From Aotearoamyces nothofagi (lineage: Eukaryota > Ascomycota > Leotiomycetes > Leotiales > Tympanidaceae), in assembly GCA_015345905.1 (NCBI GenBank), contig JADDTR010000011.1, positions 1 to 64,000 of the forward strand: a stretch of DNA of 64,000 bases, read 5' to 3'. Both the position numbers and the translations under genes were made by a program. The notes beneath the pieces were generated by a model. The model did no database searches. It worked only from the letters and a program-made list of their open reading frames with translations, and had not been told where the DNA came from. Positions within the stretch are counted from its first letter, which is position 1. Every line of letters starts with the position of its first letter. Of this stretch, positions 1 through 57,967 are shown in pieces.

Positions 1-1618
1 GGGCTCTACTTACAAGGTAACTCAAGTCGATTCTTGAAGAAGGTAAAAAGAGAGAAATCGAGGAGAGGAATTGACTCTTATATATCCCTGACTCAGTACA
101 GGGGTTACTACTATTCTTTGTTGTCAATAGACAGAGGCTTTCTTTATTATCAATAGGCAGAAGCTTTCTTTGTTGTCAATAGTGTACAGCTTAGTATTGT
201 AAAACCTTTTCTTTGTTTGATTGCTGCCTAAAATAAGCAATTCACTGAAAGGAAGCGATAGCTACCTAAAACAGTGAATTGCTTTTTCTCATCTATAAAG
301 AGAGCCTTCTTCTCCACTTCTACTCTCTCCTTCTTTTTCTTCAAGACCCTCCCCCTCTACTAAAGTAAGTACAGTAATGTATAACAGTAATACAGAGCAT
401 CTAGATTTTGGCTGATCTGATAGCATTACAATTCACAATGCCTTGGGTGAAAAAGTCACCTAAGAAGGTCAGCCTTCAAGACCAAGGTAAGTATACCCCC
501 TACCCCCCTCTATTACTTCGGACTATTAACCTTATATTACAGGCACTCGTGCCACTTTATATATCCCTTTGTACACCAAGGCAATTGTAAACCGCTGGTG
601 GTATAATATCACCAAGGCTGTATAGGATCGAATCTATAAGGCCAACAAGCCCTACCTCTACCTAAGGCCTCCTAGGGTCTCAGACAACCCTTACTCTACA
701 AAGGTAGGCAGTAAGTAATCCCCTGTCTAATGTATATAGTTACTAATCAAGAATAGCCTATACCCTGCTTGAAATCAGGCACTACCAGAAGGAGGTTGGG
801 TTCCTCCTACCAAAATTAGTATTCCAGCACCTGGTTCATAAAATCACCTAGGATATAAGGATAGACGGCAGTCTATAGTATTAGTCCTCTACTATTCTAG
901 TGCTCTAGAAGGCCAGCAAGGTATACCTGACCTTGTTCTTTAAGAGTAAGTTGAATCTCCCTACTAATTAATGATGAAATAACTAATGAATTCTAGCTTC
1001 CAATATATATACAATCTACACTAAGTATATCACCATCCAGAGCAAGGATATACAGCTGGTGAAGTGGTTTTGTACCTCTGTAGTAGTCCAAGGGGCCTAT
1101 AATTTGTAAATAAAAAAAATTTAACTGTAATCCTACTTTTGTAGTTATTAGTATAACAGTAACAGTAAACAGTAATACAATGACATCTAGAATTGTAGAT
1201 ATATCGTGCCTTTAAAATTCCTATATTTTCTAAACAGTAATACTCAATAGTAATACAATGACATGTAAAATCTTAAACTATTCCGATTTTAATATAAATA
1301 ATCTAATAATACATTTAATCGTTATAGACCGTTTCTTAGACCGGACTATTTTACTCTAGACCGAATCGGACCGTTTTAAAACGGTTCAGTTCGGTCTAGA
1401 GATTCCTAGACCGAACTATTTTGAAACGGTCTGGTCTAGTCTTACTATCTAAACAGTCTATAGTATTATAACCTAGACTAGACTATTAATATCGATCTAG
1501 TCCTAGACCAGACCATTCTGAAATAGTCCAGTCCAGTTTCAGAAGAAACGGTCCGGTTTATAAAACGGTCTATAAATTACCCTCAAGACTAGACTGAACT
1601 AGACTGTTGGCTAGTCTA
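1..1618 (-). mobile_element. hAT-type DNA transposon, terminal 1.6 kb of a copy cut by the window edge
   Basis: This stretch matches, base for base apart from scattered transitions, the reverse complement of 38720-40340 in the better-bounded copy at 38720-44603, and also 36794-38417. It ends at 1618 with the terminal sequence GGCTAGTCTA, the complement of the element's TAGACTAGCC end. The transposase part would lie left of base 1, outside the window. Decay is light compared with the copy at 32589-38417: many CpA sites survive. The segment holds the histone-H3-like gene and the start of the divergent promoter. No target duplication can be tested because only one end is present. Confidence 0.85.
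438..1109 (+). pseudogene. Histone H3-like gene carried by the hAT element (copy 1)
   Basis: Exon 1 (438-486) starts MPWVKKSPKK and ends at a GTAAGT donor; the intron runs 487-542; exon 2 starts at 543 with a basic, tail-like stretch. The exon 2/3 junction (about 703-750) is unresolved. Exon 3 (to 945) reads EIRHYQK, then an H3-like alpha1/alpha2 region containing SSTILVL and a KASKVYL segment. The last intron is 946-996. Exon 4 (997-1109) reads NIYTIYTK, ITIQSKDIQLVKW and a stop. These align in order and spacing with H3 EIRRYQK, ALQEA, CAIHAK and KDIQLAR. Loop 1 is two residues longer than in canonical H3. The core is interrupted only by TAG codons at positions where H3 or the sister copy has Gln, which fits RIP. 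Function is unknown; it may have been a histone mimic or a captured CenH3-like gene. The histone-fold assignment is strong, the CenH3 link weak. Confidence 0.8.
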
Positions 1619-4600
1619 ATATCTAGTAGTAGTAGTTGAGAAGAACTTAGTATATAAAGATCTTTAAGTCTATCTTCTAGAAACTATAGTATAATTGTAG
1701 TCAAAAGGTTTAATATCTAGATTTCCTATATTCTTTATTCTATTATAAGTATCTATTAATTGATCTACTTCTACTCCTTTAAATAAGTAGCTCTCTCCTT
1801 CTATTAAAACTCTTATAACTTACAAATTTCTTTTGCTTATTAGTTAATAATCTACTAAAATGTTTCACTTTATAGTATATATCTTCCTTTACTATAAAGA
1901 GAGCTTTAGTAGAGAAAGGTTTATAATAGTAAATATATAGATAAGTATTCTATTACTACTAAAGGAGAGATTTAAAGAGTCTTAATATCTTACTCTTCCT
2001 CTAAATATAATAAGGACAACTTATTCTATACCTTAGAAGAATTAGAAGTATCTATTAATATTAATATAGTAGCCTTCTTCTATAGTAGTATTATAGAGTC
2101 TTGTTTTTCTTATTATAATATAAAGACAATAGATTAGTAATCTAGTAATAGTTAGCCCTCTAGATAAAGAATTAGAATATAAGAGTATATTAGCTAAGGA
2201 TTATCTAATCTATATAGAAACTAATTCTTAAGGAATCAAAAAGCTTTAGAAGTATAAAGCTTCTAAATACCTCTCTTCTAAATAAAGTACTATTATAATA
2301 GTACTATAATTGAAAGTTAGAGCTATAGCTTTAACTAGATATATATATTAATTATATATATTAGTTATATACCTTTCTTATAATAGTCTAGACTAGACTA
2401 AACTATAAAAAGCAGTCTAATCTAGTCTTTAAATATTTTGATTTTTAAATAGTCTATATTATAGTTCTTAAGACTAGACTATAAATAAATAGTCTAGACT
2501 AGACTAAAATACTCTAATTACTACTTTTTTTACAATTCTAATACTAAGAGTATTACTATTAAGTATTACTGTTTTATATAGATAAAGAAAGTTATAAAAT
2601 CTTTTTTCTAAAAATAGTTATAAGAGTTCTAAGAACAGCTCTTTATAGTCTAGTTTAGTCTAGACTAGACTGTTTTTAGAAATGGTCTTTATTTTCTATT
2701 TAAGACTAGATTGTTTATTTATAGTCTAATTTAGTCTAGATCTAAATAGTTCAGTCTTTAAAACAGTTTATAAATTACTTTTAAGACTAGACTAGACTAG
2801 ACTATTAGATAGTCTAGTTTTAAGACTCTAGTTTATCTACTTATAACTATTAATATTTGTTTAAGATCAAAGGTCTCTATTTTAATACTTGTTTCTATTT
2901 TATCTAAAATAGTAAACTAATTATCTAGAACTAGCTTCTACTATTTAAGAATCTTTATATAAGTATTTTTGTTATATATTAGTTTATTCTAGTTATAGAA
3001 AGTAATAAACTTAGTAATTGACCTTTTTAGATCTTCAATCTTATTAAACTATACTTCTACTATAGAAAGATCTTTAAATTGAAGTTTATCTAAGTAGATA
3101 GTCTTATAATTACTGTCTTTATAGTTCTATTTAAGCTAAAGTTATTCTATAAAAGCTATACTTATCTTCTCTACTTCTATTCTAGTCTCTTTAATCTTTA
3201 TAAATATTATATTTAAGGTTCTACTCTTAATAGTAGTTACTTCTATAGAGTTCTTTAGATCTTTAGTCTACTATTAACTAATAAGTTCTAATTTAGCAAC
3301 TCTTTTTTAGAAGTCTTAAAACATTGTTTTAGTATTAATATCTTCTAGCCTTTATAAGTTATCTCTCTTCTATTAAGCAATTCTCAACTATAGTACTTCT
3401 AATTCTATTGTTATTTGTTATAAATATACTATAAACTGCTATTATAATATCTCTACTATTAATACTTATCTATTACTCTTAGACTTATATTCTAAGATTC
3501 TATATTCAAATTCTACAATCATTAAACAATATTGCTTTAATTCAACTGTTATCTCTTATTGATCTTAGTACTATTTTACTTATACAACTTGTATTTTATA
3601 AGTAGATTTATAATCTACAATTGTCCTTTCAAGAGTTTCTATCTTCTACTACTTCTCAATTAATTTAAATTGTACTTGTAAATTTTTATATAATTGATCA
3701 AGATTAATAGTCTCTAATTCTTTAATCTTATTTTAGTATAGCTAAATCTTAGTAAATAGCTGTTTAGAATTTGTCTAAGCCTTTGACAACTTTACTTTAT
3801 AAAGAGAGATCTTACTTTGTTATTCTACAATCTGTCTTTTATACTCTTCTAGATATAATATAAGTATAGTATCTTAAGCTATATCCTTGATTGATCTATT
3901 TATCTAGACTTGACTTATTACTTAATAAGTCTAATTATAATTATATTACTATTGTAATATACTATAAATATCTACAACTACTTTCTTTATCTTGTTGCTA
4001 TAATAACTAGCCTTAGAAGATAGTAGTAGAATATAAAAGAAATAGAGTATAATACCTTATTTAATAAATAAATCTATAATATACTTACTACTCTCTAGTA
4101 TTTTACAAATATTATATAAGAAGAAATAAGAAGTATAATCTTAGAGTATCTAGTTATATAGTCTTCTATACTATTATTTTATCTTGATATTTGAGAGTAT
4201 AGTAGTCTAGACTAATAGTCTAAGAAGTTCTTACTATCTACTATTGATATAGATTAAAAGCTAATAGTAGTCTATAATTTCTAATTTGAGATTATAATTA
4301 TATCTAGCTAGTAGTCTAGCTATTATAAGTATATTTCTAATATACTTTTAATCTATATCAATATTGAAAATACTAGTAATTATATTGGATTTAAATCTAA
4401 GAGCATTTATAAGTCTAGTAAATTCAAAGAGGTATTAGAAGTCTAGACTAATACTTAGTACCTTTTGTTTATTATCCAACTTTAGAACAAGGTTTATAAA
4501 ACAATAAAAATTGTATATAGTAAATATCTATAGTTGGATATATACTATCTTAAATCTCTTATTGTTGTCTATTTATATATTGCTATATTTGATCAATCTA

Positions 4601-28045: not shown

Positions 28046-28751
28046 ATCGACTTTGAGCTAAAGATAGGTATTTCGACTATTCAGTATCTGCTTTCAAGGA
28101 GTGGGGAGCGATAATTATCAGAGAAATATGAGCATTGCAATTGTGGTGCGTTGATCCATCAATTCGCCTCTTTGCAGGAAGCTCCAAAGGCTCAGCTTAT
28201 CGGCACGTGTATATAAACCTTTTACTTTAGATTAGTAATCTCTCGACTTTCACTCCAGCTGTAATGTATTCTGACGATTGTCACTGTATTCCTCCCCTAT
28301 TCTCCTGAACCAAAAACCTTCCTCTTACTATGTACTATCCAAAACTTAGTAGAATACTGATTCAGATCCATGTAGGATGAGTCAAGCGGCGAGAACAGCT
28401 TTACTCTCAAGACGAGCAGAACTACAACACATCCTCGCCGAAAATGACGCTGGGAAGATACAGCAGGGACACCTGTGGAAGGACTTCGCAAATGGCCCTA
28501 CCAGCTCTATTTGTCGTTTTGCATTGAATAGGATACAGTATATCCTATTGGGTATAAACGCATAGGTGCAGCCAATCCTCTCGTGGGTGGTGTCGCACAG
28601 CAGGCACGCCAGGCGTTTGCACTGCCCATTCTCCTGTTGGATGAGTCGACGTAGTCTTTTCTAATCTTAACCACCAATTTATTTCGATGGTGTTTGAAAT
28701 TTTTACTTCTATCAGGTCATTCCAAACCCTCATCGACATCAACGATTAGAT
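28046..28751. promoter_or_regulatory. Divergent promoter region
   Basis: About 700 bp lie between the starts of the BTB gene (-) and the HET-SET-MYND gene (+). No gene is visible in it. No binding-site cluster was identified by eye. Confidence 0.4.
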
Positions 28752-31911: not shown

Positions 31912-32588
31912 AATAGTCTAGTTTCAATTGCCTAGAAAGAGAGCTTAAAGAGAATTCTGTACAACTTCATTTCCTGATATCTATAGCTATAGTCTTATTC
32001 CCCTTTTGTAAAAGTACTACTTACCTATCTAGTTGTAGATAGTTTGTCTACAATTTATTATTCTTTCCCTCTTGTTTCACCGAGGCAATTTTTTCTCTTC
32101 TATATATTTAGAAAGGCGCTTCTTAATATCTTCTAGTAGTATATTCTTTAAGAGAGGATAAGCAGTTTGCTATATAAGTGTTAGTACTACTTGTATATTT
32201 CAAGCAAGCAATTGCTTTTACTTACTATCTCTGCTATAGATAGTAGCTATAATATATAGTCTCTAGATCTGTATATAGTATATCAACTATTTATATAAAT
32301 AATTAGAGCTATATTAATACTATTGAAGTCCTCTAATTTATAAGCCTTCTTAATCAAAGTATCCTTTCTTCTATTTATTTCTTTGTTCTTTCTCTTTCTT
32401 CTTTTCTCCTTATTGTTATAGTTGATATTTATATTGTCTATTGATATTAAAAAGTAATCTGTCTAGATCAGTTTTGATATACTTCTAGTATTAAATCTAA
32501 TACAATTAAGAATTGTCTATTGTTCTAGACTATATTTTGTCAAAGACCCTCTATTTTAATTGTTGTCTTTAAGGACTTTTATATCAAC
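31912..32588. other. AT-rich flank of the hAT copies
   Basis: AT content rises immediately after the stop codon of the fusion gene. The tract is RIP-like and has no gene. It ends at the TAGACTAGC terminus of the left hAT copy. Confidence 0.6.
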
Positions 32589-33069
32589 TAGACTAGCTAG
32601 ACTAGACTGTAAATAAACAGTCTAGATCAAACCAACTTATAAAAAGTGGTCTAGTTTGGTCTTTAAATACCTTGATTTTTAAATGGTCTATATTATAGTC
32701 CTTGAGACTAGACTAGTATTTATAGTCTAGTTTAGTCTAGACTACTTTGAAAAACAGTCTATATTATATAGCTTAAGACTGAACTGTAAATAATAGTCTA
32801 GTCTAGTTTAGTTCAGTCTAGATCATTTATTAGTTATATAGACAGTAATACTTTATAGTAATACTAGAAGCTTCAATTATATTACTTGAGTTACTTAGAT
32901 AGTAATACTCAATAGTAATACTCAATAGTAACACTGTTTGATTTCAATTATATTTAAAATTGCAATTCTATATCTTAGACTTCTAAACTATTAGACTTCT
33001 AAACTCTTCTTTACTAAGTTGTCTAGCTCTTTATAGAATTTAATTTGTCTATACTCTAATTATTATCTA

Positions 33070-35760
33070 ATGTCCTCTTTTATCTTGGCCTTAGTATTGA
33101 TATTTCTATCCTCTATATTTGTTATAATACTTGCTATATAAGAGATAGATCTAATATATCTACCTTGTTCTCTAATATCTCTACTTCTACTACAATATCT
33201 CTCTCTCTCTTCTCAATTGACTTATTAATATCCTCTATACTATATCAATAATCGATATTGCTTTATTCTCTAAGTATCTTCTATTTAAATCTATTGAAGT
33301 ATTTAACTATTATAGATTTAGTAACTATATTAGAGTTTATCTAAGCTCTATAATATTTATATAGATTTTATATAATATTGAATGTTCTTTCAACTCCAAA
33401 GCTAACAGCTTTTATAAATAATTGTTAGCCCTTTATATTACTATTTAACATTACTGTTTATATATCTAGAATAGTAAGAATATTATAAGCTATCTATACA
33501 ATAGAAGAATAAGAACTCTTTAGTCTCTTCTATATAGCTAAGACTGAAGTTTTAATATCTATAAAATAAAGAGACAAAAGCAGATATTATTCTGCTTTGT
33601 TCTTTAGTATAGAGTTTAATATCAAAGACTTTATATCAAGTATTTGTTATTAATGTCTAAAAATCGAGTTGAGAGTTCTTATTATACTCAGAACTATAAA
33701 ACCTATATTAATAGTAAGGTTGTTAGATATAATATCTTTATAATTGTTCTTCTAATACTTTAGAAATATCTATTTATATTTTACTCTAAATATAGAACTC
33801 TATTGAAACTAAGTAAAGATATCTAGCTTTTATAAGAGATCTAGAATTATAGTAAGAGTATACTAGTCCTTAGTTTTACTACCAATATTTAAATAATATA
33901 CTGAAAGTTTTTAGAGTTCTATCTCTATTGTAGTAATAAACTCAGTAATCTAGAGGTCTTAAGATAAATCCTTGATTTCTAGCTTAGTCTAAAGCTGCTT
34001 GAGATAGATAAATAGCTTATTATAGACATTCTAGATATAGTTAATAGTAGTATTCTTTATAGTTCTAAAAAGTATTATAAATTCAATAAAAGGTCAAAGG
34101 AGAACAATAAGATATTATAGCTTCTTTTAGTCTATATTTATCAAGTTGAGATAGTCAAATACTAGCTCCTTTTCTATCTGAGTCTCTAACCAGCTTTTTA
34201 ATAGAATCTAAAGATATATTGTATAAAGAATTATATTGTATATAGAGTTCTATTATATATCAATATCAATCTTTATATATAAGAGTTGTTTAGATTCAAT
34301 CTCTAACTACTTAAATAATAAAAGCTCTATCCTTCTATTTAATTGACTAATAAGCTTGTTTAAACTATATATCTTCAAAAAGTAAATCGATTAGTATTAC
34401 TATTAGATATTACTATAAATAGAGTATTATAACTCTTAGAGTTCTATATTTATCTTTTAGATTATAGCAACTATACTACTATCCTCTTTGATATCAAGTT
34501 CAATTCTATTGCTTTTATCTTTATTCTCCTTATCTATATTTTCTCTTAGCTTTATATAAAATGATATTATTATAGCTTTTATAACTAGTTATATAATATA
34601 TACTATATATAGTATTGTTGTTGCTTAGACCTTCTACTCTATATCATCTAATATTAACTTCAACTCTCTTCTTATAATACTATTATTAGATATATTGTCT
34701 ATAGTTATATAAAATATCTAGTTGGTCAAATAGAATCTATTGATAATAGTATAGACTATATCTACTATATATCTTTCTATATATATATCTTTGATATATT
34801 CAAATCTAATAAGAATCTATATAGATTAGTAACTCTAAGTCTAAAAAGGAGCTACTTATTACTTCTCTCTACTTCTAATCCTTTATAATATAATAATCTA
34901 AAATAGCTATAAATGATTGTCTAAAAGGACTTTATCAACTATTGAAAGCTAGAAATATCTTACTAATTGAAGGTAGATCAATTAATAGTTTATCTATAAT
35001 CCTTTTATACTATTTGTTTAGAATTGAGTAAATAGTTATACAATCTAGAATCTTAATATTAGATCTGAGTATTATAAATATCTTATATAGCTCTTTGTTC
35101 TCAACAATTTAGAATAGGAAGCTTATAGATATAATTATAATATATAGTTGTTCTTATTAGCTATCAGTCAAAAATGATAATATTGAACTCTATTGAGTTA
35201 TATAGTATTACTGTTTAGTATTACTATTCAACTATCAAAATAAATATATCTATATAGATACAATATTTACTAGATCAATCTATATCTATATAGAAGTTCC
35301 AACTATATATCTTTCTAAATAATAGATAAGTATAGAAGTACTACTACTATATTACTTAGACTAAAGATAAAAATAAACCTTCTAATATAATCGATATACT
35401 ATCTTAGTACTCTTAGTCTTGATTTCAATAGTCTAATAGAAGGAAGACTAAGCTTAGAACCTCTTAGACTTTGTTTATATAATCTTAGTAAATTCACTTT
35501 TAAAGGGCCCTTTCTAAACCTTCTCTAACTACTATATATACTATTCTTACTCTTTGTTAGATATCTATATTGTATAATATAAGTTTAGTATTTTTTTAAA
35601 GTCTAGTATTTCTCTTTGACTTAAAAGGTTAAAAGAGCTATCAATGTTGATATTAATATTAAGAAGTGATATTATAGACATTGAGTCTTAAGATAGAAGT
35701 TAAGATATAATAAAGAGAAGTATTAAGATCTATATAATAGCTGATATAGTTTAGTAAAAC
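33070..35760 (-). pseudogene. hAT transposase remnant (copy A)
   Basis: This is the position-matched counterpart of the transposase at 41411-44120. No frame longer than a few dozen codons survives. Coordinates are by alignment to the other copy and approximate. Confidence 0.7.
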
Positions 35761-35884
35761 TAGTCTATAGTAATAGTCTATAGTAATACTTAAATACTCA
35801 GATTTACAAAAGATTTTAAACAAGGTATATAGATCTATAAGAATACAACTGACCTATAACAAATTGTAATATACAACTTAAATT

Positions 35885-36600
35885 AATCTATCTATCTATT
35901 TATTATCGATAATAAAGTCCTTTATTTCTTTATTATTATTGTTCTTATTGTTATTATTATTATTGCTGATAATAATCTTAATATTATTATCCTTATTCTT
36001 ATTATCTTTATTATCCTCCTTATCCTTCTTATTATCCTTATTCTTATCCTCCTTATTATCTTCTTTAGCAAGATTGCTAAAGAAGCAATAAACGTTTTTA
36101 GAATTGCTTGCTTTCTTAGCAAAAGCCTTTAGTTTAACTTTAGTTATATCTAGAATAATATCTATACTATTAGTAATAATAGTATATTCTTAGTACTTAA
36201 TCATCAGCTTTATATTTCTTATAAAGGCTCTGGTAATAGTACTCTCTACTTTATCTATTTTATCCTTCTTCTACTTTCTTTTCTATTTATATTTAATATT
36301 AATATTATACTCTAGAAAAGAAAGACAATTTGACTAACCTTTTTAGATAGGTTCTTAAGTATCTATTTATTTGCCTCTTTATCAATTTCAGCAATTGCTT
36401 CTACTTTAGTATTTATAATTACTGTTAGTTTAGACTAATAGTCTAGACTGAGCTCGATATAGTAAGCTATTAGCTCAGCTTCAGTAGTATCTAGCTTAGC
36501 CTTCTACTAGATAGTAGATAGCTTAGACTAATTGGCCTTCTTAGTCTAGACTTTATAATAGCAATTACAAGCCTATATATTGATATCAATATTATACTTA
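35885..36600 (-). pseudogene. Acidic coiled-coil protein remnant (copy A)
   Basis: Counterpart of 40396-41238. The former Asp/Glu-rich tail is recognisable as the run of TTATCCTT/TTATTATC repeats at about 35930-36070. Confidence 0.65.
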
Positions 36601-37211
36601 ATAACAAGTAGAGAAAATCTATTAACTTATCTAATAATCAACAGTTAATATCTTAGTAATAAGAGTATAACTATCTTCTTATACTATAGTATAGCAATTA
36701 TTGAAAGAGATAGCTATATTGCTAGAATTGAGAATTGGATATAATAGTATTACTATAGAGTGTTACTATAAGTTATAAAGAAAAAAGAGAAGAGGACTCT
36801 ACTTATAAAGTAACTCAAGTCGATTCTTAAAAAAGGTAAAAAGAGAGAAATTAAGAAGAGGAATTGACTCTTATATATCTCTAACTTAATATAGAGGTTA
36901 TTACTATTCTTTGTTGTCAATAGATAGAGGCTTTCTTTATTGTTAATAGATAGAAGCTTTCTTTATTGTCAATAGTATATAGCTTAGTATTATAAAACCT
37001 TTTCTTTATTTGATTACTGTCTAAAATAAACAATTTACTAAAAGGAAGCAATAGCTGTCTAAAATAGTAAATTGCTTTTTCTTATTTATAAAGAGAGCCT
37101 TCTCTTCTACTTCTACTCTCTTCTTCTTTTTCTTTAAGACCTCTCCTCTCTACCAAAGTAAGTATAGTAATATATAATAGTAATATAGAGTATCTAGATT
37201 TTGGTTGATCT

Positions 37212-37909
37212 AATAGTATTATAATTTATAATACCTTAGATAAAAAAGTCATCTAAGAAGGTCAGTCTTTAAGACCAAGGTAAGTATACCTTCTACCTTC
37301 TCTTCTCTCTATTACTTTAGACTATTAACCTTATATTATAGACATTTGTATTACTTTATATATCCCTTTATATATTAAAGCAATTGTAAACTATTGATAG
37401 TATAATATTACTAAGGCTATATAGAATTGAATCTATAAGGCCAATAAGCTCTATCTCTATCTAAGGCTTTTTAGAGTCTTGGACAACTCTTACTCTATAA
37501 AGACAGATAGTAAGTAATCTCCTATCTAATATATATAGTTACTAATCAAGAATAGTCTATACTCTACTTGAAATCAAGTATTACTAAAAGGAGGTTAGAT
37601 TTCTTCTACTAAAATTAGTATTCTAGTATCTAGTTTATAAAATCATCTAGAATATAAGAATAGACAGTAGTTTACAATACTAGTCCTCTACTATTCTAGT
37701 ACTTTAGAAGGCTAGTAAGGTATATCTAACCTTATTCTTTAAGAGTAAGTTAAATCTCTCTATTAATTAATAATGAAATAACTAATAAATTCTAGCTTCC
37801 AATATATATACAATCTATACTAAGTATATTACTATCTAGAGCAAGAATATATAGCTAGTAAAGTGGTTTTATACCTCTATAGTAGTCTAAGAGGTCTACA
37901 ATTTATAAA
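37212..37909 (+). pseudogene. Histone H3-like gene remnant (copy A)
   Basis: Counterpart of 438-1109 and 39229-39902, in the same exon order. It has many more stops than the other two copies, and the initiator ATG is lost. Confidence 0.7.
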
Positions 37910-38417
37910 TAAAAAAAATTTAACTATAATTCTACTTTTGTAGTTATTAGTATAATAGTAATAGTAAATAGTAATATAATAACATCTAGAATTGTAGATA
38001 TATTATATCTTTAAAATTCCTATATTTTCTAAATAGTAATACTTAATAGTAATATAATAATATATAAAATCTTAAACTATTCTAATTTTAATATAAATAA
38101 TCTAATAATATATTTAATTATTATAGACTGTTTCTTAGACTAGACTGTTTTACTCTAGACTGAATTGGACTATTTTAAAACAGTTCAGTTTGGTCTAGAG
38201 ATTTCTAGACTGAACTATTTTGAAATAGTCTAGTCTAATCTTACTATCTAAATAGTTTATAGTATTATAATCTAGACTAGACCATTAATATCAATCTAGT
38301 CCTAGACTAGACTATTCTAAAATAGTCTAGTCTAGTTTCAGAAGAAACAGTCCAGTCTATAAAACAGTCTATAAATTACTCTTGAGACTAGACTAAACTA
38401 GACTACTAGCTAGTCTA

Positions 38418-38711
38418 GTTTAGTCTAGTCTAGACTATTTATTTATAGTCTAGTCTTAAGAACTATAATATAGACTATTTAAAAATCAAGATATTTAAAG
38501 ACTAGACTAGACTGTTTTTTACAATTTAGTCTAGTCTAGCCAATCTATTTCTAAGTATATTAGCCAATTGAATATCTATAGACCTCCTTCTATTCTTTCT
38601 TTGATATTGATTTAATATCTATTTAAAGAATACCTTGAAAGTATAGTAAGAGATAGTCTATATTACTTAGATAGAATCCTTTTATATATATTTATAATAT
38701 CTATAAAGAGT
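38418..38711. other. Spacer between the two head-to-head hAT copies
   Basis: About 38425-38545 resembles the element's own subterminal repeat (compare 44480-44590) in direct orientation, so it is a fragment or small derivative of the same family. The rest is AT-rich sequence without features up to the target duplication at 38712. Confidence 0.55.
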
Positions 38712-38719
38712 GTTAGATT
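38712..38719. repeat. 8 bp target-site duplication, left copy (GTTAGATT)
   Basis: The identical octamer lies at 44604-44611, directly outside the other terminus. Eight-base duplications are the hallmark of hAT insertion. Confidence 0.92.
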
Positions 38720-39228
38720 TAGACTAGCCAACGGTCTGGTTCGGTTTGGTCTCAAGGGTAATTTGTAGACTGTTTTATAGACCGGACTGTTTCTTCTGAA
38801 ACTGGACTAGACTATTTCAGAATGGTCCAGTCTAGGACCAGATTGATATTAATAGTCTGGTCTAGGTTATAATACTATAGACTGTTTAGATAGTAAGACT
38901 AGACTAGACCGTTTTAAAATGGTTCGGTCTATAAATCTCTAGACCAAACTGAACCGTTTTAAAATGGTCCGGTTTAGTCTAGAGCAAAATGGTCCAGTCT
39001 AAGAAACGGTCTATAACGATTAAATGTATTATTAGATTATTTATATTAAAATCGGAATAGTTTAAGATTTTATATATCATTGTATTACTATTGAGTGTTA
39101 CTGTTCAGAAAATATAGGAATTTCAAAGGCATGATATATCTACAATTCCAGATGTCATTGTATTACTGTTCACTATTACTATTATACTAATAACTACAAA
39201 AGCAGGATTACAGTTAAATTTTTTTTAT

Positions 39229-39902
39229 TTACAAATTGTAGGCCCCTTGGACTACTGCAGAGGTACAAAACCACTTTACCAGCTATATATCCTTGCTCTG
39301 GATAGTGATACACTTAGCATGGATTGTATATATATTGGAAGCTAGAATTCATTAGTTATTTCATCATTAATTAGTAGAGAGATTCAACTTACCCTTAAAG
39401 AACGAGGTCAGATATACCTTACTGGCCTCCTAGAGCACTAGGATAGCAGAGGACTGGTACTATAGACTGCCGTCTATCTTTACATCCTAGGTGATTTTAT
39501 AAACCAGGTGCTGGAATACCAATTTTAGCAGGAGGAACTCAACCTCCTTTTGGTAGTGCCTGATTTCAAGCAGGATATAGGCTATTCTTGATTAGTAACT
39601 ATATATATTAGACAGGGAATTACTTACTACCTGCCTTTATAGAGCAAGGGTTGTCTGAGACCCTAGGAGGCCTTGGATAGAGGTAGGACTTATTGGCCTT
39701 ATAGATTTGATCCTATACAGCCTTGGCAATATTATACCATCGGCGGTTTGCAATCGCCTTGATATACAAAGGGATATATAAAGTGGTACAAGTGCCTGTA
39801 ATGTAAGGTTAATAGTCCGAAGTAATAGAGGGGGGAGAAGAAGGTGTACTTACCTTAGTCTTGAAGGCTGACCTTCTTAGATGACTTTTTCACCTAAGGC
39901 AT
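39229..39902 (-). pseudogene. Histone H3-like gene carried by the hAT element (copy B)
   Basis: The minus-strand reading from ATG 39902 has the same exon structure as copy 1. The core reads EIRHYQK, an alpha1 ending in 'FQHLVYKI', an extended loop 1 ('KIDGSL'), 'YQSSAILVL', 'EASKVYLTSFF', then across an intron 'SNIYTIHAKCITIQSKDI' and 'LVKWF'. Canonical H3 has [44 protein letters not shown] at the same spacing, including across the splice. Between the conserved Ile of alpha1 and LQEA there are 19 residues here against 17 in H3. In the core the stops are TAG at Gln positions; copy 1 keeps CAG at one of these and this copy keeps CAG at another, so the ancestral codon is visible. The tail replacing RRIRGERA is hydrophobic (CTSAVVQGAYNL). 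Confidence 0.85.
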
Positions 39903-40395
39903 TGCAAATTGTAATACTATCAGATCAGCCAAAATCTAGACACTCTGTATTACTGTTATACATTACTATACTTACTTTGGTAAAGGGGGGGAGGTCTTAA
40001 AGAAAAAGAAGGAGAGAGCAGAAGCAGGAGAGAAGGCTCTCTTTATAGACGAGAAAAAGCAATTCACTGTTTTAGACAGCCATCGCTTCCTTTCAGTGAA
40101 TTGCTTATTTTAGGCAGCGATCAAACAAAGAAAAGGTTTCACAATACTAAGCTGTACACTATTGACAACAAAGAAAGCTTCTGCCTATTGACAATAAAGA
40201 AAGCCTCTGCCTATTGACAACAAAGAATAGTAGTAACCCCTATACTGAGTCAGGGATATATAAGAGTCAATTCCTCTCCTCGATTTCTCTCTTTTTACCT
40301 TCTTCAAGAATTGACTTAAGTTATCTTGTAAGTAGAGCCCCCTTCTCTTTTTTCTTTGTAACTTATAGTAACACTCTATAGTAATACTATTATAT
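39903..40395. promoter_or_regulatory. Divergent promoter of the hAT H3-like and acidic-protein genes
   Basis: About 490 bp separate the two divergent genes. It contains an exact 13 bp inverted repeat AAGCAATTCACTG / CAGTGAATTGCTT (40057-40069 and 40094-40106) and three 26 bp tandem units starting at 40161, 40187 and 40213 (ATTGACAACAAAGAAAGCTT type). Both features recur in the other two copies (about 235-290 and 114-183 in copy 1), so they belong to the element. They are candidate sites for an element-encoded regulator. Confidence 0.6.
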
Positions 40396-41238
40396 CCAAT
40401 TCTCAATTCTAGCGACATAGCTACCTCTTTCAATAACTACTACACTATAGTGTAAGAAGATAGTCGTGCTCTTATTGCTAAGGTACTGACTGCTGATCGT
40501 TAGATAAGTCAATAGATTTTCTCTACTTGTTACTAAATGTAATACTGATATCAATATATAGGCTTGCAATCGCTGTTGTAAAGCCCAGGCCAAGAAGGCC
40601 GATTGGTCTAAGCTGTCTGCTGCCTAGTAGAAGGCCGAGCTGGACACTGCCGAAGCCGAGTTAATAGCTCGCTATATCGAGCTTAGCCTAGACTATCAGT
40701 CCAAACTGACGGCAATTATAGATACCAAGGCAGAAGCAATTGCCGAAATTGACAAGGAGGCAAATGAGCAGATGCTTAAGAACCTGTCTGAAAAGGTTAG
40801 TTAAATTGTCTTTCCTTTCTAGAGTACAATATTAATATTAAATATAAATAGAAAGGAAAGTAGAAGGAGGATAAGATAGATAAAGTGGAGAGTACTATTA
40901 CCAGGGCCTTTACAAGAAATATAAAGTGGATGATTAAGTGCTGGGAATATACTATCATTGCTGGTGGTACAGATGTTATCCCAGATGTAACCGAGGCTGA
41001 ACTGAAGGCTTTTGCTGAGAAAGTAAGCAATCCTAAGGACATTTGCCACTTCCTTAGCAATCTTGCTAAGGAAGATAACAAGGAGGATGAGGATAAGGAT
41101 AATAAGAAGGATGATAAGGATGATAAGGATAATGAGGATAAGGATAATAATATCGAGGTCATCATCAGTAATGATGATAACGACAATGAGAACGATGATG
41201 ATGAGGAGATAAAGAACTTCATTGTTGATAATGAGTAG
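40396..41238 (+). pseudogene. Coiled-coil protein with long Asp/Glu-rich tail, hAT-encoded
   Basis: Reading through TAG codons that look like former CAG, the first part gives 'SFNNYYTIV...EDSRALIAKVLTADR', a short Cys-containing 'ACNRCCKAQAKKADWSKL', and a helical heptad-like region ('AELDTAEAELIARYIELSLDY', 'EAIAEIDKEANEQMLKNL'). After a probable intron near 40795-40830 the frame from 40885 is fully open: 'WEYTIIAGGTDVIPDVTEAE', 'ICHFLSNLAKE', then about 55 residues dominated by Asp, Glu, Lys and Asn up to the stop. Acidic tails are typical of histone chaperones and of many other nuclear proteins; here the link is suggested only by the neighbouring H3-like gene. I recognise no domain. Confidence 0.6.
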
Positions 41239-41410
41239 ATAGATAGATTAATTTAAGTCATGTATTACAATTTGTTATAGGTCGGTTGTATTCTTATAGG
41301 TCTATATACCTCGTTTAAAATCTTTCGTGAATCCGAGCATCTAAGTATTACTGTAGACCATTACTATAGACTGGTTTTACCAAACTATATCAGCTATTAT
41401 ATAGATCTCA

Positions 41411-44120
41411 ATGCTTCTCTTCATTATATCTCAACTTCTATCTCAAGACTCGACGTCTATAATATCGCTTCTTAACACTGACATCAGCGTTGATAGCTCT
41501 CTCAACCTTTCGAGTCAAACTCTAATGCTAGACTTTATAAAAACGCTAAACTTACATTGTACAATATAGACATTTGACAAAGAGCAAGAATGGTATATAT
41601 AGTAGTCAGAGAAGGTCTAGGGAGGGCCCTTCAAAAGCGAATTTGCTAAGATCATATAGGCAAAGTCTAAGAGGTCCCGAGCTTGGTCTTCCTTCTATCA
41701 GGCTATTGAAATCAAGACTGGGAGTACCAAGATAGTATATCGATTGTATTGGAAGGTTTATTCTTATCTCCAGCCTAAGTAATATAGTAGTAGTACTTCT
41801 ATACTTACCTGTCATTTAGAAAGGTATACAGTTGGGACTTCTATATAGATGCAGATTGACCTAGTGAATATTGTATCTATATAGGTATATTTACTTTGAT
41901 AGTCGAACAGTAATACTGAACAGTAATACTATATAACTCAATAGGGCTCGATATTGCTATTTTCGACCAATAGCTGGCAAGAACAACTATATATCACGAT
42001 TATATCTACAAGCTTCCTATTCCAAATCGTTGAGAACAAAGAGCTATATAAGACATTTACAATACTTAGACCTAACATCAAGATCCTAGATTGTATAACT
42101 GTTCACTCAATCCTAGACAAACAGTATAAAAGGGTTATAGATGAACTGTTAATTGATCTACCTTCGATTGATAAGATATCCCTAGCTCTCAATAGCTAGC
42201 AAAGTCCTTTCAGACAATCATTTATAGCCATTCTAGATTATTATATTATAAAGGATTGGAAGTAGAGAGAAGTAATAAGTAGCTCCTTTCTAGACTTAGG
42301 GTTATTGATCTATATAGGTTCTTATTGGATTTGAATATATTAAAGATATATATATAGGAAGATGTATAGCAGATATAGTCTATACTGTCATCGATAGATT
42401 CTATTTGACCGACCGGATGTTTTGTATAACTATAGACAATGTATCTAATAATAGTACTATAAGAAGAGAGTTAGAGTTAATATTAGATGATATAGAGTAG
42501 AAGGTCTAAGCAACAACAATACTATATATAGTACATGTTATACAGCTAGTTGTAAAAGCTATAATGACATCATTTTATATAAAGCCAGGAGAAAATATAG
42601 ACAAGGAGGATAGAGACAAAGGCAATAGAATTGAGCTCGATGTCGAAGAGGATAGTAGTATAGTTGCTGTAATCTAAAAGGTAAGTACAGAACTCTAAGA
42701 GTCATAATACTCTACCTACAGTAACACTCGATAGTAATACTAATCGATTTACTTTTCGAAGATATACAGTTTAAGCAAGCTTGCTAGTCAGTCGAGTAGA
42801 AGGACAGAGCTTTTATTACTCAAGCAGTTAGAGATCGAATCTAAACGACTCTTATATATAAAGATTGATATTGATATATAATAGAACTCTATATACAATA
42901 TAATTCTTTGTACAATATATCTTTGGATTCTATTAAAAAGCTGGTTGGAGACTCAGATAGAAAAGGAGCCAGTACTTGATCGTCTCAACCTAACAAATAC
43001 AGACTAGAAGAAGCTACAATATCTTGTTGTTCTCCTTCGACCTTTTGCTGAATTTACAATGCTTCTTGGAACTACAAAGGACACTACTGTCAACTATATC
43101 TAGAATGTCTACAACGAGCTATTTATCTATCTCGAGCAGCTTTGGACCAAGCTAGAGATCAAGGATTTATCTCGAGACTTCTAGATTACTGAGTTTATTA
43201 CTGCAATAGAGATGGGACTCTAGAAACTTTCAGTATATTATTCAAATACTGGTAGTGAAGCTGAGGACTAGTATACTCTTGCTATAATTCTAGATCCCTT
43301 ACAAAAGCTAGATGTCTTTACTCAGTTTCAATGGGGTCCTACATTTAGAGCGAAATATAAATAGGTGTTTCTAAAGTATTGGAGGGACAATTATAAAGAT
43401 ACTATATCTGACAACCTTACTACTGATATAGGTTTTGCAGTTCCAAGTACAATGAGAACCCTCAACTCGATTTTTAGACATCAACAACAAACGTCTAGTA
43501 TAAGGTCTTTGACATCAAACTCTATACCAAAGAACGAAGCAGAACAATATCTGCTTTTGCCTCTTTATCCTATAGGTGTTGAAACTTCAGTCTTAGCTAT
43601 ATAGGAGGGACTAGAGAGTTCTTATCCTTCTGTTGTATAGATGGCTTATAATATTCTTGCTATTCTAGGTATACAAACAGTAATACTAAACAGTAATACA
43701 AAGGGCTAACAATTATTTATAAAAGCTGTTGGCTCTAGGGTTGAAAGAACATTTAATATTGCACGAAACCTACATGAATATTATAGAGCTCAGATGAACC
43801 CTAATATAGTCACTAAATCTATAATAGTTAAGTACTTCAATAGGTTTAAATAGGAGATATCTAGAGAATAGAGCAATGTCGATCATTGATATAGTATAGA
43901 AGATGTTAATAAGTCAATTGAGAAGAGAGAGAAGGATATTGTAGTAGAAGCAGAGATATCAGAGGACAAGGTGGATATATTAGACCTACCTCTTATACAG
44001 CGAGTGTTACAACAAATACAGAGGATAGGAACATCAACACCAAGGCCAAGACAAAAGAAGGCATTAGATAATAATCAGAGTACAGACGAATTAAGTCCTA
44101 CAAAGAGCCAGGCAACTTAG
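41411..44120 (+). pseudogene. hAT-family transposase, RIP-interrupted
   Basis: A frame from ATG 41411 to TAG 44118-44120 reads about 900 codons with scattered TAG/TAA. A BED-type finger-like region is near 41690-41830 ('SRAWSSFYQAIEIKTGSTK', 'SSSTSILTCHLER'). The RNase-H-like core follows ('SLALNS', 'SPFRQSFIAILDYYI', 'DWKxREV'), then 'YNELFIYLEQLW' and 'LAIILDPLQKL'. The C-terminal hAT dimerisation segment 'GVERTFNIARNLHEYYRAQM' is near 43740. Order and spacing match fungal hAT transposases. Probably more than ten stops are present, so no active enzyme is expected from this copy. Confidence 0.85.
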
Positions 44121-44299
44121 TGAAGAAGAGTTTAGGAGTCTAATAGTTTAGGAGTCTAAGATACAGAATTGTGATTTTAAATGTAATTGAAATCGAACAG
44201 CGTTACTGTTGAGCGTTACTATCTATATACCTCAAGCGATGTAATTGAAGCTTCCAGCATTACTGTAAAGCATTACTGTCTATGTAACCAGTAAACGGT

Positions 44300-44600
44300 C
44301 TAGACCAAACTGAACCGGACTGGACTATTATTTACAGTTCAGTCTTGAGCTATATAATATAGACCGTTTTTCAAAGTGGTCTAGACTGAACTAGACTGTA
44401 AATACTGGTCCGGTCTCAAGGACTATAATGTAGACCGTTTTTCAAAGCGGTCCAGACTGAACCGGACTGTAAATACTGGTCTGGTCTCAAGGACTATAAT
44501 ATAGACTGTTTAAAAATCGAGGTGCTCAAAGACTAGACCGGACCGCTTTTTATAGGCCGGTCCGGTCTAGACCGTTTATTTACAGTCCGGTCCAGCTAGT
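44300..44600. repeat. Right subterminal tandem repeats of the hAT element
   Basis: Three ~71 bp units beginning CTGAACYRGACTGTAAATACTGG...CTATAATRTAGACYGTTT lie at about 44304-44385, 44386-44456 and from 44457, followed by GGTCCGGTCTAGACCG near the end. Such arrays typically bind hAT transposase. The same motifs appear at 32589-32830 and near 38425-38545. Confidence 0.75.
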
Positions 44601-44603
44601 CTA

Positions 44604-44611
44604 GTTAGATT
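44604..44611. repeat. 8 bp target-site duplication, right copy (GTTAGATT)
   Basis: Identical to 38712-38719. Confidence 0.92.
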
Positions 44612-45300
44612 AGTAAATTCAATAGTAGAAGATAGTAGACAAAAAGAGAATAAGATATCTATTGATAGAAATTTCTCTCAACTATATCTAGAAGGAGAAG
44701 GCTACTATTATTATAGTTCTTATCTTTATTCTTAGATTTGTCTAAGTTATTCTCTTAGTTAAGGTAGTATTCTAGTAGATAGATATTCTCCTCTTTAGTA
44801 AGTTATTCTAGATCTAGTAGATCTATCTTATTGTCTCTATTTATATCAATATTAATATCTATCGACTTAGTCTTAGTATCAATCTTCTCTTACTTATCTT
44901 CTATATTAAAGAAGCTTTTAATGTTTGATCTATTACTGTTGAAGAAGGTAGAGCTTAGTATTAATTGTTAGCAATAATATATATCGACTAATTCAACTAA
45001 AGGAGACAATAGCAAGAGTAATTAAAAGTAAAGAAGTAGAATAGAAGATATAAGAAGGAGTCTACTATCTAAGTAATAGTAGTAGCTAGTAGAGAGATAG
45101 AAGAGAGATAGAGCAAGAGATAGTAATAGTTGAGTATAAGAGGTTTAGAAGAAAGAAGATAGAGAAGAAAGAGAGAGAGAGAATAAACGAAGATATAGAA
45201 TAGCTACTATCTTAGTAGACAGCTGTTTTCTACTCTTCTCTTCTTAGCAAATATTGAACAAGGATGATATAAGAGAAGTAGTTTTCCAAATGATGACTTG
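44612..45300. other. AT-rich right flank of the hAT block
   Basis: Purine-rich, RIP-like sequence with no gene. Normal composition returns at about 45290-45300. Confidence 0.5.
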
Positions 45301-46416
45301 ACCCACTCGCTTTTTTTCGTGTTTCTATAACAGAGGTCCCTACTGCCTTGCTGCCTTGGCTATAAGGTATACAAGCACTAGAGCAGTACAAGATTTTGGC
45401 AAGTCAGCTACAGAAAACAGCGACCAAACCAGCCGAAAACAGCAGCCAATTTGCTGTCTAGTCGTTAAAGTAGATAATATATTATATTTTCTTAAGAGTA
45501 GATATAGTAGTAATAGTATACGAAAGATCTATAGTCAGCCGATGTTTTACTGGGCATGGTCAGCCGACGTTTAACCGGGCTAGCAGTGGTCAGCCGACCT
45601 ACATCCTGTAATATAATGCCTATCCTAGTCCCAGCGGCACACGGCCGGCTCGGCCCTTTCTCCATTATCTCTGGCAAGACCCGTGAACTGTGGATGGCTC
45701 GAGATACGGAGGCATCCAATCATTAGGCGTGATCCACTTACCGCATCTAGGAGACTGCAGCAGCAGTGTTTGAATCGAAAGCAGCCTTGCACGCCTTCCT
45801 GTAGAATTGATAAGGCTGCCTAGGCACATGCAAAACGTGTGGTTTATGGTGACCGTTCGCGACCAGACCTGCAATGATACCGTTTTTGCATGACTCACAT
45901 TTTACGCACACATCCCCGCACCTTGCGGCGCAGAGCAGGTCCCATTTGAGGGGCTTATCATCTCTCAGCGCGGATGAGCAGGCGAAGGAGCAAGCCGAAG
46001 CTGCTAAGAAGGCCGAAGCCGAAAGACAGCAACGCGAGGACGCCGCGGCAGTCACGAAAGGGCTAAGCGATGCGACGACCATAAAACAGCTATCGTCAAC
46101 TGGAGACGCCGCGAAGAAGAAGAGGCAAAAGTGATATGGGGGCTGATGCTCATCACAATGAGCTCTTGTTAGTTCCGAGGCAGGAAGTCGGTCGTAGTAC
46201 CAGTTGGCGCATAATACTTTCATAGCGGTAATTCAGCAAAGGTCACGTGTTGAAACAATTTGATCTTAAAAAGCCCATTGGCCATCAGCTTAATCTAATG
46301 TGCCTAACCAAACCTTGCTAGCGGCGGGCGCTATCGGCAACTAAAAATAGCTCACAACCTCACAACAATCCTCAGACTGATCAATCACTCGCAAATTCTT
46401 CCTTTCAACGTCTTCG
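45301..46416. other. Mostly non-coding, with one coding-like fragment
   Basis: A plus frame at about 45965-46134 encodes 'ADEQAKEQAEAAKKAEAERQ', a short Ala/Glu/Lys coiled coil ending 'AAKKKRQK'. It could be the last exon of a lost or unmodelled gene, or simple low complexity. A plus-strand GCCGACGT/ACC repeat ('GGTCAGCCGA') occurs three times at about 45534-45600. The right end should contain the promoter of the APH-like gene. Confidence 0.3.
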
Positions 46417-48159
46417 ATGTTAAACATGAATGGCACTACTACAGAAATTGAACCGGCACCTTCCGGCCTCAAGGATCCGGCGAACTCCCCAGCAGACATC
46501 CCAGCAAAAAAAGCATCGGCATCAAAAGCACTCACCCTTCCACTTCTCCAGGGCAGAACGACATTAACTGAGGCTCTTGAAGAGGAGGAGAATATGCTCT
46601 TCCGATTGGCATATCCCAGCCAACGCTTTGAATTCTTTCTTTGGATCTTACAGCACCGCAAAGACTTCGAAGCTATCGTATCGTACCATCTATCCTTGGC
46701 CGCCAACGAGATTTGTCGATTTGGGGAAGTCGGAGAGTGGAAACACGGCAGTTTTAACGTTTGTATACCGATATACATTGATAATTGGAGCAAGTCTCCA
46801 AGGAGAAGAATACTGCTTAGGGTGCCTCTGCCCTATAAAGTGGGAGAATCGGCATATCCCGGTAACGCGAACGAGAAACTACGCACCGAAGCTGCCACCT
46901 TTGTCTGGATTGAGGACAATTGCCCCGATGTCCCAATACCTCACTTATGGGGTTTTGGGTTCCCAGGCGGTCAGAGTGTATGGATCCTCTTTGTAGTATT
47001 TCGGATTAATTTTCAGAACACATGCTGATCTAGACAGTTTATGAGGCCTGAAAACGCACCTTTCGGCACGAGAATGATCTGGCATCTCCGACGTGCCATA
47101 TCATCGTTCTTGAGATCTCCCCTTCCTTGTCGATATATAAGCTACAGCCGTCCAAACATTCTGGAGCATGGATATTTGATTATGGACTACATCGAGATAT
47201 CAGATGCGGAGATGCTTTCTGACACTTGGACCAACCTTTGTCAATGCCAAGACCTGAGGGTCAACCTCTTCCGGGATCTGTCTCGCATCATCCTCTCGTT
47301 GAGTCAGATGCCTCTGCCTCGCATCGGGTCCTGGACAATAGACGAACGAGGTGTCTTAACGCTAGCAAATCGTCCATTGATTCATCAATTTCAGTCCTTG
47401 GAAAATGAAGGCATTCCGACCAATATAGCGAGGACTCTCACCTATACGACTGCAGATGCATACTATATTGATCTCCTAGCATGCCATGATAATCGCATAC
47501 GAAACCAACCAAACTCTATAGTCGACGAAAAAGACGGCCGCGCACAGATGGCGAATCTATTCGCGATGCGAGGGCTTCTTCCCCACTTCACAAGCCGAGA
47601 TCTTCGGCATGGACCATTTGTGTTCAATCTCACCGACCTGCATGGAAGCAACATCTTTGTCGACTGCGATGGGCACATCAAATATATCATCGATCTCGAG
47701 TGGGCATGCTCGCTTCCTATAGAGATGTTGACTCCTCCGTATTGGATCACTAGCCGCGCGGTGGATGAGCTTGAAGGTGACGAGCTTCAAACATTCGAGA
47801 AGGCATACCAAGTTTTCGCGGATATATTCGAAGAAGAGGAGAAAAATTTCTCTCGCACTTATGGCAGTGCTACATACCGCACAGATATCATGAGGAGAGG
47901 TTGGAAGATTGGAAATTTCTGGTACTTCCACGCACTGAAAAGCCCCAAAGGATTGTTCAACCTTTTCCGGCAACACGTGCAGCCAATATTTGAATCACGA
48001 CGCGATAATTTCACGCCACATGTCGACGAATTTGCACAGATAGTATCGCCCTATTGGGCTTCTGATGCGCAAGAGGTTATTATTGCAAAACTTGCGGACA
48101 AGACGAAGTATGAACAAAACTTGCGAGAATTGTTTAAGATGGGTGGGCCAGTCCAATAA
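46417..48159 (+). CDS. APH-type phosphotransferase-family protein
   Basis: Two exons, 46417-46977 and 47038-48159, join across a 60 nt intron (GTATGG...CTGAT...ACAG) to 560 residues. The family has a protein-kinase-like fold; members phosphorylate aminoglycosides, choline or unknown small molecules, and most fungal ones are uncharacterised. An N-lobe with 'SFNVCIPIYI...ILLRVPLPYKVGE' (Lys-bearing strand) and 'LRTEAATFVWIEDNC' (the E helix) is followed by 'LIMDYIE', the catalytic 'LTDLHGSNIFVD' (Asp and Asn kept, the usual preceding His replaced by Leu) and the metal-binding 'IIDLEWA'. The N-terminal ~50 residues are low complexity. The frame is uninterrupted despite lying close to the AT-rich block. 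Confidence 0.82.
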
Positions 48160-48565
48160 CAAATCCTCAGCTACGCCCTACTTGGTTGATTGAGGTCGAG
48201 TATGTGCGGGTATCAGCCAGCCCGCGCTTCTCGCCGAAAGTAATCAACCCAATAAGCGAGCTCCATTGAGAAATGCTGCGAAGCGCCAGAGAACCAATCA
48301 AGGGATGACTCGCTGCCTCATGAAAGAGGCGAGGGCCTATATAAAGATGGTATGGCTAATCCATTTCTTATCGAATTCGAGGATCGCCGACATATTTCTG
48401 ACCAACATGTTTGTGACCGACACGCTTGTGACCAACATGTTTTGTGGTAGGGCTCAAAATCGCAGGGTAGAACGCGTATCCTTTTGATTTGAATAAATCA
48501 AGCTTCGCAACGTCCAAAAAGACTTCTAAGTTAAACTGCTTATAATTTACCGCAAGGTTTTCTTT
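48160..48565. other. Intergenic with a short repeated motif
   Basis: The motif TGTGACCAACATGTTT/TGTGACCGACACGCT repeats at 48399-48445. No gene was seen. Confidence 0.4.
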
Positions 48566-48763
48566 CTATTGTAGAACTAGCTCACGGAAACCATAGACTT
48601 TGTCTTTCGGAAGACTGCATTCGTGGTGTTGGCCGAATACTGTCATTGGCGATGGGGGACAGTGTTCCTGTAGCAAGGGCAGTCCTAAGGTGCTGAGCGT
48701 GCTAGAACTGCGACCCCAGGGTTGAATCGGTCCTGGGTCATCTGTCCTAGGACGGATGGCCAT
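48566..48763 (-). pseudogene. Possible HET-domain relic
   Basis: The minus frame includes 'CSLPKDKVYGFRELVLQ', which matches the late HET motif seen in the fusion gene of this window ('CTLPHDKVFGLLGLLPQ') and in HET proteins generally. Nothing else of the domain is recognisable, so it would be a small fragment. Confidence 0.3.
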
Positions 48764-48995
48764 CCAGGACCAACTATCCAGATTAGAGAGCTATTTAGGA
48801 CAGTCTCTAGAACAGGAAATTTGTCCTATATACCTCATCCTATAACTCATGTCCTACAGCGCCCTCACTCCTGTGACTGACGGAAATCTGAGAGTTGTTC
48901 TTCTATCCTCGTAACCAAGTCGTGCCGATCTTGGCCCAGCGTCGTGTTCCTCTTTGCCTGGAGCAACCTTGGCCACTGAAAGAATTGCAATTGTT

Positions 48996-49485
48996 TCACA
49001 GGAATGATAATGTGCTCAAGAGCGATATAAATGTAACAGACTGAAAACATATTAAATTACAACACAAGACTCTACTCGTGGACACAGAAAGGGAAATCCG
49101 TTGACAGTAGTGATCATCAGCTTCAAGCACACTCCGAGATCCACCTTGACGTTGTTCTTGCTGTGTCTCCTCCAATCTATCGCTTCTGCAATCGCCTGGC
49201 AGTATCACAGTAATGCTATAGCACCTATCCAACATTTTCCTTACCCATGATAATGTGGATTCCATATTCCCATTGGAGTGAGTCTGTTTCCTGCTGAGGC
49301 CCTTGGTCGATTCGAGTGTAGCGGAGGCCTTGCTCAAGGCGTTGACCAGTTGATAGAAGTCGTCAAGGAGTTGATACATTACTTCCGCTGTGACTACTTT
49401 TTGAGGTTCGTAGAGTACTGCACGAGGATCGCCCCTGGGGTCCGGTGCGAGAGGGCTGCATGGATCTCTTTCTACTATAATATAT
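48996..49485 (-). CDS. Unknown fragment with helical region
   Basis: The frame is open from about 49485 ('APDPRGDPRAVLYEP', 'VVTAEVMYQLLDDFYQLVNALSKASATLES') to 48996. The helical 'LLDDFYQLVNALSKASATLES' stretch resembles short conserved segments of fungal multi-domain proteins, but I cannot name it. There is no ATG at the left of the open frame, so it would be a 3' exon or fragment. Confidence 0.3.
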
Positions 49486-56921: not shown

Positions 56922-57169
56922 TTTGAAGAGCGACAAAGGTCGAGTTCGATTATATAAGACGGATGAGTAAAGGAGATTTTAGAAGAGCTTTCTACTGAGA
57001 ATCTCTTATAGAGTTGCATCATTAGTCTGTAATGGCTGGCCATGCCTTATCTTTAAACCCTGCCGTCATCGAAGTGTGGGGTCGGAGAAACGTTATCGCG
57101 ATCTCCATGATGCTTTAGCTCTCGAGGATCGCCGAGATCAAGATTGGCCTCTGAAAGAACATAAACAAA

Positions 57170-57714: not shown

Positions 57715-57967
57715 ATACTTGGGTCGTCAATATATGATTGAGAAGCACCTCAGGTGCTGTATTAGTAGATATCATCTGTAGCATAGCACTCGGCGTTGGG
57801 GTGGAGGCCTAGAATTGGGAATTTGACATCGCCATATGGCGGCCTGGCCACTCTTCTCATCATCGTAACAGCCATTGAGAGTAAATTATGCACACGCGTT
57901 TATGACTGCCTCCTATGTCAATACTTCACAAGGTTCCTCCATCAGATCAGCCAGTTCAATCTCAAAA

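Follow-up and report, generated by a model that had tools for sequence, protein, structure and literature searches.

Among the transposons of the fungus Aotearoamyces nothofagi is a hAT element that carries, between its ends, a gene for a histone H3-like protein (H3L). The element lies at positions 38720..44603 of contig JADDTR010000011.1 (assembly GCA_015345905.1), of which the first 64,000 nucleotides, here called the window, were analysed; all coordinates refer to the window. This copy, copy 1, is very probably a member of the known fungal hAT elements that hold a captured H3 gene, inactivated by repeat-induced point mutation (RIP). The earlier note on this DNA, which had drawn attention to the gene, knew of no described hAT element encoding a core histone variant. 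This is contradicted by two papers, Manning et al. 2013 (PMC3538342) and Dhillon et al. 2019 (PMC6710886), both of which describe such elements. The novelty of an H3-carrying hAT is not upheld; the element is one more example, and what it adds is a gene model with introns, two residues of extra length in loop 1 compared with H3, and an acidic tail on the central gene.

The H3L gene is found on the minus strand at 39229..39902 and comprises 172 codons when spliced, with internal stop codons of the RIP type. A histone profile search, which the earlier note had proposed, gave a significant result: the spliced product, read through its stops and with its first 16 positions taken from copy 3, matches Pfam PF00125 with an E-value of 2e-17 (64 bits, cut-off 26.4). 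The same family is hit at E 3e-14 and 53.7 bits by the two main exons taken from copy 1, most of whose stops were written as X. In a search of PDB sequences the best match had an E-value of 2.4e-16, and the best 60 of 173 distinct sequences with E <= 0.001 were all histone H3 or an H3 variant. A search of NCBIfam, whose library serves prokaryotes, gave no match. Using a Neurospora H3 sequence, tblastn against the window found copy 1 (E 1.5e-14) and copy 3 (E 1.1e-10) and nothing else at E <= 1, missing copy 2, the most decayed. The internal stops in all copies might suggest that the resemblance to H3 arose by chance in AT-rich, decayed DNA; this is vanishingly improbable, being already refuted by the Pfam and PDB matches, and the gene is present in three copies with the H3 register restored by splice sites.

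Our gene model has four exons and three coding-region introns, where the earlier note had placed a single intron, and all of these features are on the minus strand. Exon 1 (39854..39902) encodes a short basic start, MPxVKKSxKKVSLQD, and is followed by intron 1 (39796..39853; 58 nt, GTAAGT..CAG). Exon 2 (39628..39795) is mostly an N-terminal extension without an H3 counterpart, and its 3′ end reaches H3 G44. Removal of intron 2 (39582..39627; 46 nt, GTAAGT..TAG) joins this exon to exon 3 (39393..39581), which holds the end of alpha-N, alpha-1, loop 1 and alpha-2, and yields AGTYILLEIRHYQKE against PGTVALREIRRYQKS in H3, gap-free in a MAFFT alignment. Intron 3 (39342..39392; 51 nt, GTAAGT..TAG) behaves in the same way, its removal giving FFKASNIYTIHAK, again gap-free against H3 at the junction by MAFFT. 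Exon 4 (39229..39341) reads SNIYTIHAK..ITIQSKDI*LVKW, followed by a changed C-terminus and a TAA stop codon. The GTAAGT donors of all three introns are kept in all three copies of the element, and the spliced gene aligns with the H3 core without gaps except in loop 1. The earlier note had reported H3 motifs with H3 spacing; the order of the motifs stands, and so does the spacing, except for the two extra residues in loop 1. It had also described the gene as spliced, internal to the element, opposite in strand to the transposase and recurring at the same place in two other copies, all of which we could confirm. A canonical H3 N-terminal tail was not found: alignment is confined to the short basic start and the residues immediately preceding alpha-N.

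We counted identities over the histone core. Copy 1 is identical to N. crassa H3 at 43 of 81 positions and to yeast H3 and vertebrate H3.2 at 41 of 81 each, compared with 34 of 83 for Cse4 and 27 of 83 for CENP-A. Copy 3 shares 33 to 36 of 81 positions with the H3s (33 of 81 with yeast H3) and 30 of 83 with Cse4; for copy 2 the values are 27 to 29 of 78 and 25 of 80, respectively. When the 81 core positions were compared with those of N. crassa H3, at least one copy agrees with it at 45, a further 19 are explicable by C-to-T or G-to-A changes alone, in any context, and 17 need other replacements. Given these 45 matches and 17 replacements, the gene looks H3-derived and diverged beyond RIP. It resembles canonical Pezizomycotina H3 in its histone core, in motif order and spacing and in QSKDIQL in alpha-3, a sequence typical of filamentous ascomycete H3, and differs from it by the two additional loop 1 residues, the long N-terminal extension, the changed C-terminus and the 17 replaced core positions.

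By these counts, the H3L cargo is nearer H3 than the centromeric variant CenH3. With CenH3 and CENP-A it shares the histone fold and an extended loop 1, the two extra residues relative to H3 being present in CENP-A as well, and this would favour a captured centromeric histone; its core identity to them is nevertheless lower than to H3. We rejected such a capture, which we regard as highly improbable, on core identity, which in all three copies is higher to the three H3 sequences than to CENP-A or Cse4, narrowly so in copies 2 and 3. Additionally, loop 1 has Y before QSS, where CENP-A and Cse4 have W, and the H3L of Pyrenophora, which has insertions in its N-terminal tail, was placed by alignment with neither fungal H3 nor CenH3 by Manning et al. 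(PMC3538342). The predicted structure of exon 3 (two of three copies, TAG read as glutamine) is a two-helix hairpin with a predicted local distance difference test score (pLDDT) of 83 and a predicted TM-score of 0.58. Among the 19 PDB matches that Foldseek returned for it with E <= 10, there was no histone and none reached E 0.001; because exon 3 is without alpha-3, this outcome speaks neither for nor against the fold, and the histone call comes from the sequence profiles.

The element itself is 5884 bp long between its target site duplications (TSDs) and is read on the plus strand. In copy 1 the 8-bp TSD GTTAGATT is present on both sides (38712..38719 and 44604..44611, no strand, read from the sequence) and the terminal inverted repeats (TIRs) are 9 bp, with TAGACTAGC at 38720..38728 on the plus strand and its counterpart at 44595..44603 on the minus strand (GCTAGTCTA on the plus strand); TSDs and termini are all exact, and both the 8-bp TSD and the short TIRs are as expected of a hAT. 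The transposase gene occupies approximately 41552..44122 on the plus strand, with several exons and many RIP-type stops. Its C-terminal piece, with one inner intron spliced out, matches the hAT C-terminal dimerisation region PF05699 at approximately 43524..43860 on the plus strand (E 7.2e-05, 22.9 bits, cut-off 21.4). A BED-like stretch can be seen by eye, and the four N-terminal and middle transposase pieces scanned against Pfam had no match. TSD, TIRs and a PF05699 match above its cut-off after intron removal together bear out the assignment of the element to hAT.

Two other copies were found by BLAST against the window. Copy 2 (32586..38417, minus strand), the most RIP-mutated, has its H3L at 37231-37905 on the plus strand. 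It consists of two overlapping BLAST pieces, one from 38417 to 32681 (86% identity, 5738 columns) and one from 32811 to 32586 (79%, 226 columns), the latter being the element's right end, and its termini are identical to those of copy 1. Copy 3 (1..1625, minus strand) is 92% identical, with its H3L at 438-1106 on the plus strand; the window edge cuts the element, so that only its left terminus is visible.

The closest published descriptions come from two groups of fungi. Manning et al. (PMC3538342) described in Pyrenophora tritici-repentis a hAT of about 5.6 kb with a transposase, a central open reading frame (ORF) and H3L. The element studied here, at 5.9 kb, has the same components, with TIRs, an H3-like gene between the termini and a central ORF beside the transposase. 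In Pyrenophora, 26 near-identical copies of H3L were reported, 12 of them with identical ORFs and two with frameshifts, as well as expressed sequence tags (ESTs) of H3L, whereas the three copies seen here are all RIP-mutated. From six Mycosphaerellaceae, Dhillon et al. (PMC6710886) described hATs that bear H3 and have been inactivated by RIP; in P. fijiensis they reported 784 H3-like stretches. The elements of Pseudocercospora fijiensis, Cercospora zeae-maydis and relatives share with ours the hAT type, the 8-bp TSD, the H3-like cargo, the inactivation by RIP and the location in AT-rich blocks. Full-length elements of P. fijiensis are larger, at 9.5-9.9 kb with one or two H3-like stretches, compared with 5.9 kb and one H3L here. 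The same authors inferred that an intronless transcript had been captured, whereas the H3L described here has three introns. The 16-residue insertion in the second H3-like stretch that they reported is close in size to the 51-nt intron of our gene and may itself be an intron left unspliced.

Several points weigh against the reading of copy 1 as one of these elements. Membership was judged from the published descriptions, and common descent with those elements is putative. The three introns, set against the intronless transcript inferred by Dhillon et al. (PMC6710886), mean that a separate capture is possible, or else that their model needs revision. The choice of H3 over CenH3 is made from identity counts against five reference sequences, and although the ranking of the two groups is the same as in copy 1, the margin is small in copies 2 and 3. 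The PF05699 match falls to 19.9 bits, below the cut-off of 21.4, in a longer spliced query with more upstream sequence, and to an E-value of 0.069 with the intron kept, exceeding the cut-off only after intron removal. Finally, no matching TSD was seen by eye at the flanks of copy 2. Of the sharp TIR and TSD boundaries claimed by the earlier note, those of copy 1 hold; with no TSD match for copy 2 and copy 3 cut by the window, sharp boundaries are established in one of three copies.

The state of the copies points to RIP. Of the 795 aligned differences between copies 1 and 2, 785 are transitions and 10 transversions; 480 of the transitions lie at CpA or TpG, and copy 2 carries T or A in 724 of the 785. 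Six indel events separate the two copies, all outside coding exons. Within the H3L reading frame, the three copies differ by transitions only, with 94 between copies 1 and 2, 49 between copies 1 and 3 and 93 between copies 2 and 3. Such transition-dominated differences fit RIP. Internal stops are present in the H3L of all three copies, and the present copies cannot make the full protein. Altogether, 16 H3L codons are a stop in at least one copy, and three of these are a stop in all three. The mutated share of CpA/TpG sites in the H3L region is 0.20, 0.74 and 0.23 in copies 1, 2 and 3, counting only sites known from another copy, and at these rates about 3% of sites would be expected to be mutated in all three if the copies were independent. 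Compared with this expectation, the three shared stops suggest that H3L may already have been damaged in the common ancestor of the copies, while the element still moved; RIP hot spots could be another source of the shared stops. In three stretches of the transposase, copy 2 has 30 stops and these include all 11 found in copy 1, indicating a state similar to that of H3L.

If copy 1 is a RIP-killed hAT with a captured H3, the cargo could have been either a passenger or a working gene. As a measure of constraint, we find non-RIP replacements at 7 of 39 invariant and 10 of 42 variable positions (Fisher p = 0.59), in a small test in which invariance is defined over the five H3 and CenH3 reference sequences. 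The replacements do not avoid invariant positions and thus give no signal of H3-like constraint, which speaks against a function held closely to that of H3; on the other side stand the intact frame and introns. A passive passenger, caught by chance and amplified by hitch-hiking, would be expected to lack a pattern of constraint and to share stops between copies, as seen here in both H3L and the transposase, and this is the view of Dhillon et al. (PMC6710886), who regard the H3-like cargo as transduplication. Such a passenger fits less well with a frame, introns and most of a histone core that survived 17 non-RIP replacements in 81 positions and a reshaped N-terminus without a frameshift, or with cargo of the same kind in elements of both Pleosporales and Mycosphaerellaceae (PMC3538342, PMC6710886). 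We tentatively place this reading just short of an even prospect.

The other subdivision is that H3L was a working gene of the hAT lineage, keeping element chromatin open or steering integration, and was selected until RIP. The earlier note had likewise suggested, as possible roles, that it could mark element chromatin, steer integration or interfere with silencing. A working gene is consistent with a frame and three donors that persist in every copy, no indels having been seen in the exons, with an H3 core that is gap-free apart from loop 1, and with the ESTs, near-identical copies and identical ORFs of Pyrenophora (PMC3538342). The acidic tail of the central gene also accords with it, the central protein being perhaps a partner; this gene is, however, without a family above cut-off. 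We consider a working gene unlikely, given the outcome of the constraint test and the three of 16 stops common to all copies, against about 3% expected, by which H3L was maybe broken while the element moved. A wider version, which we hold to be quite unlikely, has H3L paired with the acidic-tailed central gene as a lasting chromatin module in a hAT lineage spread over Dothideomycetes or beyond; the H3 variant encoded by the transposon would have been captured as an intron-containing gene and not as a transcript, and with its acidic partner would act on nucleosomes either at the element or at the sites it targets.

The central gene (40413..41238, plus strand; start and exon bounds by eye) lies between H3L and the transposase. 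Its exons include 40562-40798 and 40864-41238, with ACNRCCKAQAKK.. and ..KAFAEKVSNPKDICHFL.. in their translations, and end in a D/E/K/N-rich tail that is acidic and lysine-rich. For the ORF at 40864-41238, the first 70 residues were found in copy 2 at 67% identity. No Pfam model exceeded its cut-off for this gene, and the last exon folded alone with AlphaFold2 gave a poor model (pLDDT 47). The idea of the central protein as a partner of the histone is a guess based on its tail. A viral-contig scan gave 12 pattern matches for a transposase exon and 84 for the last exon of the central ORF but no confirmed relative, H3L not having been scanned. H3L and the central gene diverge across a shared upstream region (39903-40400); this holds a 26-nt sequence repeated three times in tandem (40159-40236), and each gene has, by eye, an intron in its 5′ part.

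We also observed a 21-nt dyad, RGTARYRC N5 RGTARYRC, that occurs 14 times in the window. Seven are in copy 1, at 39082, 40367, 41909, 42720, 43679, 44200 and 44257, and the others are at 1236, 2550, 32844, 32901, 32914, 35205 and 36747; when copy 1 was shuffled by single bases, none of 200 shuffles contained it. The dyad is found in both subterminal regions and, by eye, also within introns of the transposase and central genes, and may be a transposase-binding or intron-borne motif.

Copies 1 and 2 are arranged head to head with their left ends about 300 bp apart (38417-38720), and the spacer resembles the right subterminal region, 38448-38521 matching 44479-44552. Within 2386-2829, sequences at 2386-2479 and 2744-2829 are similar to the element's ends and there is one dyad, at 2550, perhaps representing a fragment or a non-autonomous relative. 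The elements sit in AT-rich, RIP-like blocks, while 8000-32000 and 44000-64000 are GC-richer host DNA with long ORFs, e.g. at 28698-31481, 50956-53058 and 60985-62778.

Taken as a RIP-inactivated, H3-bearing hAT, the element would have taken up a Pezizomycotina H3 gene, which would then have diverged inside it by the gain of two residues in loop 1 and of a new N-terminal extension. H3L would have travelled with the element through ordinary hAT transposition before RIP killed the present copies. In an intact element, H3L might be expressed from its own upstream region, with a product that enters or disturbs nucleosomes, although we hold this step with low confidence; altered nucleosomes were already raised as a possibility by Manning et al. 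(PMC3538342). We add a further RIP-killed hAT with H3-like cargo, and its explicit intron-bearing gene model is relevant to the inference, made in the literature, that the capture was of a spliced transcript. Should intact relatives show selection on H3L, the transposon would come equipped with a histone variant of its own; Manning et al. 2013 (PMC3538342) raised this question, and in literature term searches we recognised no later paper as giving an answer.

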